A stretch of DNA of 35,270 nt. Source: Flavobacteriales bacterium (GTDB lineage Bacteria > Bacteroidota > Bacteroidia > Flavobacteriales_D > Parvicellaceae). The stretch covers positions 1 through 35,270 of the forward strand of contig JAQWQH010000162.1 in NCBI GenBank assembly GCA_029244805.1, read 5' to 3'. Below, one piece after another: positions 23,471 to 24,964 of the stretch; the first letter of the stretch is position 1, and each line of letters starts with the position of its first letter. The position numbers and the translations under genes were made by a program. The notes under the pieces are model-generated. The model had not been told where the DNA came from. It ran no database searches and saw nothing but the letters and a program-made list of their open reading frames with translations.

Positions 23471-24964
23471 ATGGAAAAATACGATTTATGTGTAATAGGT
23501 GCAGGACCAGCAGGATATGCTTCTGCAATGCGTGCAATTGATTTTGGAAAGAAAGTTATTCTTATCGAAAAACAAAAGGCCGGTGGTGCCGGACTTTATA
23601 AAGGAGCTCTTTCATCCAAGACTTTATGGGAACTTTCTCAAAAGGTAAAAGCAGTTAATGAAAGTATTGTCTCAGTTGGTAGAAAGAAACTGGAAGTTAC
23701 CTGGGAAGAAATCAATAAGACTGTTAACGAAGCAATTTTTGATAGAAAATTTCAATATTCCTGCCACATAAAATTATTGGAAGCAGAATCCATGAACAAA
23801 ACCTTTAAATACGAAAGAGGTATTGGATCATTTGTAGACAATCATGTGATAGAAATTTCTAAAGAAAATGGCAAGAAGAAACAGATATATGCTGAAAACA
23901 CTATAATAGCAATTGGTAGCAAGCCGCGTTTATTGAAAGGTGTAGACGTTGATGAAAAAATTATCATGACAAGTGATGGTATTCATGAAATTGAAGATTT
24001 TCCAAAAAGTTTAGTTATCGTTGGTGCAGGAGTAATAGGGTGTGAATTTGCAACTATTTTTTCGAATTTCGGGAAAACAAAAGTTCACTTAATAGACAGA
24101 GCTGATAAAGTACTTCCATTTGAAGATGATGATATTTCTGGAATGATTGAAAACAACTTGGCCAAAAATGGTGTTATTGTTCATCATCGAGCTACTTTGG
24201 AGAGACTTGAAAAAAAAGATGGTGAAGTAGAATATGAACTTTCATACCCAGATGGGAAAAGAGAAGTTATTCGCGTAGAGAAAGCTTTACTGTCAGTAGG
24301 TAGGGTTTTAAATTCAGATGCTCTTCAAATGGAAAATGCTGGCGTATCCATGAGCAAAAGAGGGGTTCATATTGGAGATGATGATACCCAGACTAATGTA
24401 CCAAACATTTACGCTTGTGGCGATGCAAGCGGTCATCTTGCATTATACAATATTGCAGAACTTGAAGGAAGACATGCGGTAGAAAGAATATTCGATGGCA
24501 AAAAAGTACCTCTTTCTTACGATAATGTGAGTACAATAATGTTTCTACAACCTGAAGTAGCGTCTGTTGGAATGAATGAAAAGCAATGTATAGAGAACAA
24601 TATTGATGTAAAAGTTGTGAAAATTGATTACTCCTGTATTGCAAGAGCTATTGCCATGCGGAAAACAGAAGGGTTCTTTAAAATAATTGTTACCAATGAT
24701 AAGGAAATGAAAATACTTGGAATGCGTGCCATCGGAGAACATGCATCTAGCGCGATTCAGGCGGTAGCTTTATTGATGAAGATGGACAAGGGTATTGAGG
24801 AGCTAGCAGAAATGATCTATCCTCATCCTTCTATTGTTGAAGGAATTCAAGAATGTGTTAGAATGCTCTTAAATAAATCTATCTTTAAATCATCTGTATT
24901 TAAAGATAAATTAAAATGCTATAGCTGTGTAGATGGAGTATGCACTCCCCTTCAGAGACTTTAA
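23471..24964 (+). CDS. Dihydrolipoamide-dehydrogenase-like flavoprotein lacking the redox disulfide
   Basis: A 497-residue class I pyridine-nucleotide-disulfide oxidoreductase fold: FAD site GAGPAG (10-15), NAD site VIVGAGVIGCEFA, FAD ribityl contact YACGDASG, and dimer-interface His-Glu pair IYPHPSIVEGIQE. However, where Lpd has GGTCLNVGCIPSK this protein reads GGAGLYKGALSSK (38-50), so both redox-active cysteines are absent and it cannot work as an ordinary dihydrolipoamide dehydrogenase. A C-terminal tail of CYSCVDGVC (Cys483, 486, 491) is extra. It may be a transhydrogenase-like or NAD(P)H:acceptor enzyme, or the tail may supply an alternative redox centre. It is likely in the parAB-DUF5683 transcript or just after it. 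Confidence 0.85.
   Translation: MEKYDLCVIGAGPAGYASAMRAIDFGKKVILIEKQKAGGAGLYKGALSSKTLWELSQKVKAVNESIVSVGRKKLEVTWEEINKTVNEAIFDRKFQYSCHIKLLEAESMNKTFKYERGIGSFVDNHVIEISKENGKKKQIYAENTIIAIGSKPRLLKGVDVDEKIIMTSDGIHEIEDFPKSLVIVGAGVIGCEFATIFSNFGKTKVHLIDRADKVLPFEDDDISGMIENNLAKNGVIVHHRATLERLEKKDGEVEYELSYPDGKREVIRVEKALLSVGRVLNSDALQMENAGVSMSKRGVHIGDDDTQTNVPNIYACGDASGHLALYNIAELEGRHAVERIFDGKKVPLSYDNVSTIMFLQPEVASVGMNEKQCIENNIDVKVVKIDYSCIARAIAMRKTEGFFKIIVTNDKEMKILGMRAIGEHASSAIQAVALLMKMDKGIEELAEMIYPHPSIVEGIQECVRMLLNKSIFKSSVFKDKLKCYSCVDGVCTPLQRL

Follow-up and report, generated by a model that had tools for sequence, protein, structure and literature searches.

Complete loss of both cysteines of the redox disulfide is already known for the lipoamide dehydrogenase (Lpd) fold, in Irc15p of Saccharomyces cerevisiae, reported to have arisen by duplication of LPD1 (PMC6296175). 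Irc15p keeps the His-Glu dyad and is rapidly reduced by NADH. It does not reduce lipoate, glutathione or cystine, whereas ferricyanide, DCPIP, MTT and menadione are all accepted as substrates (PMC6296175). In LpdA (Rv3303c) of Mycobacterium tuberculosis the disulfide is incomplete, and the work cited on it in PMC6296175 describes a protein with no disulfide reductase activity that reduces quinones. The soluble transhydrogenases (STHs; SthA/UdhA) also have no complete disulfide and are recognised by the signatures CxxxxT and YxxxxE (PMC9460512). High-Mr thioredoxin reductases and thioredoxin-glutathione reductases keep the N-terminal CxxxxC relay and add a C-terminal extension with a conserved Cys/Sec pair.

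The flavoprotein analysed here is comparable to each of these systems in part. With Irc15p it shares the Lpd fold, the loss of both cysteines and the His-Glu dyad; since Irc15p is a duplicate of yeast LPD1, the two losses were independent. LpdA differs from it in keeping one of the cysteines and in having no His-Glu dyad. With Lpd (E3, TIGR01350) it has in common the fold, both FAD motifs, an NAD motif with an acidic residue and the dyad, but both disulfide cysteines are gone and a hairpin tail of 30 residues is added. It resembles the STHs in the missing disulfide and in the string GAGVIGCEYA, whereas these enzymes have Thr in CxxxxT, Tyr in place of the dyad His, Asn at the position of Asp209 and no tail. 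Its Cys-containing C-terminal extension is reminiscent of the high-Mr thioredoxin reductases, but it has no N-terminal relay and the cysteines of its tail are not conserved as a set.

A lipoamide dehydrogenase-like flavoprotein without the redox disulfide

The window (the whole stretch of 35,270 nucleotides that was analysed) encodes a Cys-less, Lpd-like FAD flavoprotein of 497 residues at 23471-24964, with an ATG start; the gene and all of its features described below are on the plus strand. The Pfam domains Pyr_redox_2 and Pyr_redox_dim both scored over their cut-offs, as for a complete oxidoreductase with its dimerisation domain. The AlphaFold model built on a 110-sequence alignment (mean pLDDT 94.5) has the full Lpd fold, and a Foldseek search placed it closest to the solved structure 6uzi (TM-score 0.94), in agreement with the assignment to the flavoprotein disulfide reductase fold; an earlier model from 13 close homologues, with a mean pLDDT of 63, was discarded. 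Among the NCBIfam models, the best was dihydrolipoyl dehydrogenase (TIGR01350), at 368.8 bits and thus below its cut-off of 408.8, followed by the Si-specific transhydrogenase (NF003585; 301 against 465 bits). The scores against PRK07845, the NAD(P)H-quinone dehydrogenase model of LpdA (265 bits, cut-off 479), and the high-Mr thioredoxin reductase TIGR01438 (176 bits, cut-off 476) were lower. The reading frame is a real gene, as many genomes carry orthologues with 57-98% identity and as Ala46 and the absence of the cysteines are invariant across 118 distinct family members.

The initial annotation had described both active-site cysteines as replaced, with the FAD, NAD and His-Glu motifs remaining, and both statements agree with the translation and with the family as a whole. 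The disulfide site is occupied by GGAGLYKGALSSK (residues 38-50; 23582-23620), and residues 36-54 are free of cysteine in all 118 members. Residue 46 is Ala throughout, and residue 41 is Gly or Ala with few exceptions. The FAD motif GAGPAG of the GxGxxG type lies at residues 10-15 (23498-23515), where G10 and G12 are invariant and P13 and G15 are conserved at 90% or more in alignment A2; in the second FAD motif, TNVPNIYACGD (residues 308-318; 24392-24424), G317 and D318 are invariant in the same alignment. The NAD motif GAGVIG is followed by C191 (residues 185-191; 24023-24043). The dyad His452-Glu457, in the Lpd-type context H-P-S-I-V-E (24824-24841), is kept in the family, and five residues past Glu457 a further cysteine, Cys462 (24854-24856), is near-invariant (113/116).

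Lys50 was retained in 110/110 sequences of alignment A2, and Lys50 and Glu192, like the key residues of the FAD motifs, stayed the same in every sequence after canonical Lpds and STHs had been added to the alignment. Lys50 and Glu192 are the Lys-Glu pair near the flavin N5 in this fold. Asp209 (24095-24097), which closes the second strand of the NAD domain, is invariant in alignment A1; at this position the Escherichia coli references have Glu (Lpd), Asn (SthA) and Arg (Gor). On the basis of this one residue position, the acidic side chain predicts a preference for NADH over NADPH. As Lys50, Glu192, Asp209 and the His-Glu dyad are all kept and the disulfide cysteines are gone, the half reaction from NADH to FAD appears to be preserved, and from the sequence we infer that the disulfide half reaction would be impossible.

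Phylogeny, distribution and gene neighbourhood

In a maximum-likelihood tree that sampled the family, Lpds, enzymes similar to glutathione reductase and MerA, STHs, and Lpd, SthA and Gor of E. coli, the Cys-less proteins formed one clade (100/100 support) on a long stem of 1.34. This clade fell outside the Lpd, glutathione reductase and soluble transhydrogenase groups, and its sister group had no firm placement. The flavoprotein is thus a member of an unnamed, uncharacterised, Bacteroidota-centred subfamily in which the CxxxxC disulfide has been permanently lost. The suggestion of a distinct enzyme class is borne out to the extent of this separate subfamily; a class defined by a redox or metal site in the tail is not supported (see below).

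Family members are present throughout the taxonomic family of the window's genome and in much of its order (113 of the 246 sampled genomes at E 1e-100); occurrence elsewhere in the phylum was sporadic (8/393, the window's own included). Carriers named in a general genome scan were Flavobacteriales, such as Fluviicola, Crocinitomix and Crocinitomicaceae MAGs. The occurrence is patchy, as a genome of the same genus (G002; 94% complete) has no family member, and a search of plasmids at E 1e-80 returned none carrying the flavoprotein. With dihydrolipoyl dehydrogenase as the best, though sub-threshold, model, automatic pipelines could easily mislabel this clade, and its separation avoids false E3 calls in Bacteroidota genomes for proteins that have no residues for the E3 reaction. 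The clade also provides a natural and conserved enzyme of the disulfide reductase fold without its disulfide, a useful system in which to study where the electrons of the reduced flavin go.

The gene neighbourhood changes between lineages. In the window's lineage the gene comes after parA, parB and a DUF5683 gene (Pfam assignments; the clusters occur at 14 loci). In many other Flavobacteriales (42 loci) it is divergent from a neighbouring gene for a CxxCxxCC protein (PF03692), and carriers further removed have yet other neighbours. Operon inference across lineages therefore identified no neighbour pointing to a substrate or acceptor, in keeping with the earlier remark that the parAB surroundings do not explain the gene. 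Scans for promoters and terminators gave matches at chance level. The adjacency to the PF03692 gene is conserved: its product is of a metal-chelating type and is encoded on the strand opposite to the flavoprotein gene, at L039:6364-6891 and at 41 other loci.

The C-terminal extension

The protein ends in an extension of about 30 residues (468-497; 24872-24961), modelled as a beta-hairpin with strands at 481-487 and 490-493. The tail alone had no relative in the PDB. Its three cysteines are at positions 483 (24917-24919), 486 and 491 (24926-24943), exactly where the initial annotation placed them, and on these it had based the proposal of a CxxC-x4-C swinging redox or metal site comparable to that of high-Mr thioredoxin reductases. 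It had also asked whether loss of the active-site cysteines and gain of the triad coincide among homologues. They do not: all members are without the active-site cysteines, and the triad is missing in 95 of the 116 members with a readable tail.

The 21 sequences with all three cysteines include the window's genome and its nearest relatives (L010 and L011). Taken singly, Cys483 is present in 111/116 members, Cys486 in 31/116 and Cys491 in 27/116, the last two together in 26/116. Most members have Cys483 alone; the commonest form of the tail is C-Y-S-L-V-D-G-V-K, and positions 486 and 491, mostly Leu and Lys, are among the most variable of the tail (pairs seen: L/K, R/V, C/C and C/K). When the tail was left out of tree building, at least 8 state changes were needed for the triad and only 1 for Cys483. 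The single lineage with Ala483 (5 rows) has both Cys486 and Cys491; these sequences, L021, L022, L025, L026 and L035, belong to one genus and run on for roughly another 10-25 residues at the C-terminus.

Sequence conservation over the final 30 residues equals that of the rest of the protein (mean entropy 1.03 versus 0.99 bits), from which it follows that the tail matters, but not as a CxxC-x4-C motif. Judged from the DSSP string of the model, residue 486 should face residue 491 across the hairpin, with 483 on the other face of the strand, and this arrangement, together with the variability of 486 and 491, speaks against both a CxxC redox or metal centre and a swinging arm of the high-Mr thioredoxin reductase type. 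In 6 independent comparisons of supported branches that differ in Cys486, Cys491 went the same way in 3.5 and the opposite way in 0 (p 0.125), so that co-variation of the two is no more than suggested. The conserved hairpin most probably serves as a structural cap or in dimer contact. Cys486 and Cys491 would then be a lineage-specific cross-strand pair, possibly joined by a local disulfide, rather than a catalytic centre. A chemical role is conceivable for Cys483 and Cys462, which are both near-invariant. The tail is also a caution, as the striking Cys motif of one genome proved to be mostly lineage variation.

Probable function and alternative explanations

We consider these proteins to be probably NADH-dependent flavin reductases of the quinone or diaphorase type, comparable to Irc15p and forming an uncharacterised Bacteroidota subfamily in which the hairpin would be structural (estimated probability about 0.55). 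NADH would reduce the FAD in the usual manner, as the conserved residues suggest, and with no disulfide relay the reduced flavin would deliver electrons to a small acceptor without an intermediate. The acceptor would most likely be a quinone or a similar compound, although its type is a guess, and it would occupy the room left by the Gly/Ala replacements, where His452-Glu457 may still supply or shape protons. Direct reduction of a quinone-like acceptor is favoured from Irc15p, the nearest characterised analogue, and from the quinone reductase activity of LpdA; LpdA and the STHs illustrate that losing the disulfide can have other outcomes. The flavoprotein has the sequence features on which Irc15p-like chemistry depends, so that an NADH/quinone activity is predicted for it; in proteins of this kind, diaphorase turnover may be incidental rather than the biological function. 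A role as an E3 subunit was rejected, since two canonical CxxxxC Lpd genes are present elsewhere in the same genome (contigs C217 and C5). Of the characters of a dihydrolipoyl dehydrogenase, the His-Glu dyad is present; the CxxxxC site is replaced, the TIGR01350 score is below the cut-off and the protein is outside the Lpd clade.

A shuttling of hydride between NADH and NADP+ through the flavin, as in the soluble transhydrogenases, appears unlikely. The second-best NCBIfam model, the missing disulfide and the shared string GAGVIGCEYAT all point towards it, and none of the 246 genomes of the order has a protein over the STH cut-off, which leaves room for a substitute; the matches of about 390 bits in that search appear to be canonical Lpds (one, L235 in G054, has CxxxxC), and the search is therefore uninformative on a substitute role. 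The score is far under the 465-bit cut-off, however, and the clade is placed outside that of the STHs. Where STHs have CxxxxT and YxxxxE, the flavoprotein has GxxxxA and HxxxxE, with Ala in place of Thr and the dyad His in place of Tyr (PMC9460512). The acidic Asp209 disfavours NADPH, and in SthA the C45A replacement alone lowers transhydrogenation about 10-fold (PMC9460512). We would also give only a small chance to a non-enzymatic or moonlighting Lpd relative that acts as a scaffold or regulator, with FAD and NADH bound for structural reasons or as sensed ligands. Irc15p, itself a disulfide-free Lpd paralogue, is microtubule-associated and its structure responds to oxidation (PMC6296175), and the gene context here is non-metabolic and differs among lineages; the strong selection on the residues for flavin reduction and the conserved NAD motif speak against such a role.

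Two further explanations assign the chemistry to the tail, and both are very improbable. If the three tail cysteines took electrons from the partner flavin and passed them on to a metal or a thioredoxin-like substrate, in the manner of high-Mr thioredoxin reductases, their presence in the window protein and its nearest relatives, the conserved and ordered tail and the tendency of changes at 486 and 491 to pair would be accounted for. The scarcity of the triad (21/116), the lineage that has Ala483 with both other cysteines, the opposite faces predicted for 483 and 486 and the want of an N-terminal CxxxxC relay to feed such an arm make this the least probable explanation of all. Nearly as improbable is a replacement of the disulfide by Cys483, perhaps with Cys462, in which the hairpin would set this residue beside its own or the partner flavin as a one-cysteine flavin-thiol centre; if true, this would be a type not described for the Lpd fold. 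The preferred reading remains direct electron transfer from the flavin to a small acceptor.

Canonical Lpds and other disulfide-free relatives

The canonical Lpd on contig C217 (L051, GGTCLNVGCIPSK; G000:C217:3205-4587) contains one in-frame TAA, between TNKH and ETNVSG, which is absent from the match in the relative G001 and is either a MAG error or a recent lesion. The STH-like proteins of Bacteroidota have GGANTHKGTIPSK, with neither cysteine; in the SthA clade, L242, L243, L244 and L246 have GG[AS]NTHKGTIPSK or GGNSTRKGTIPSK, again with neither cysteine, and thus depart from the STH signature CxxxxT. A very divergent disulfide-free relative, L250:85-1425, has GGRAAMSSLLPSK and lies outside the clade of the window's flavoprotein on a very long branch (3.13).
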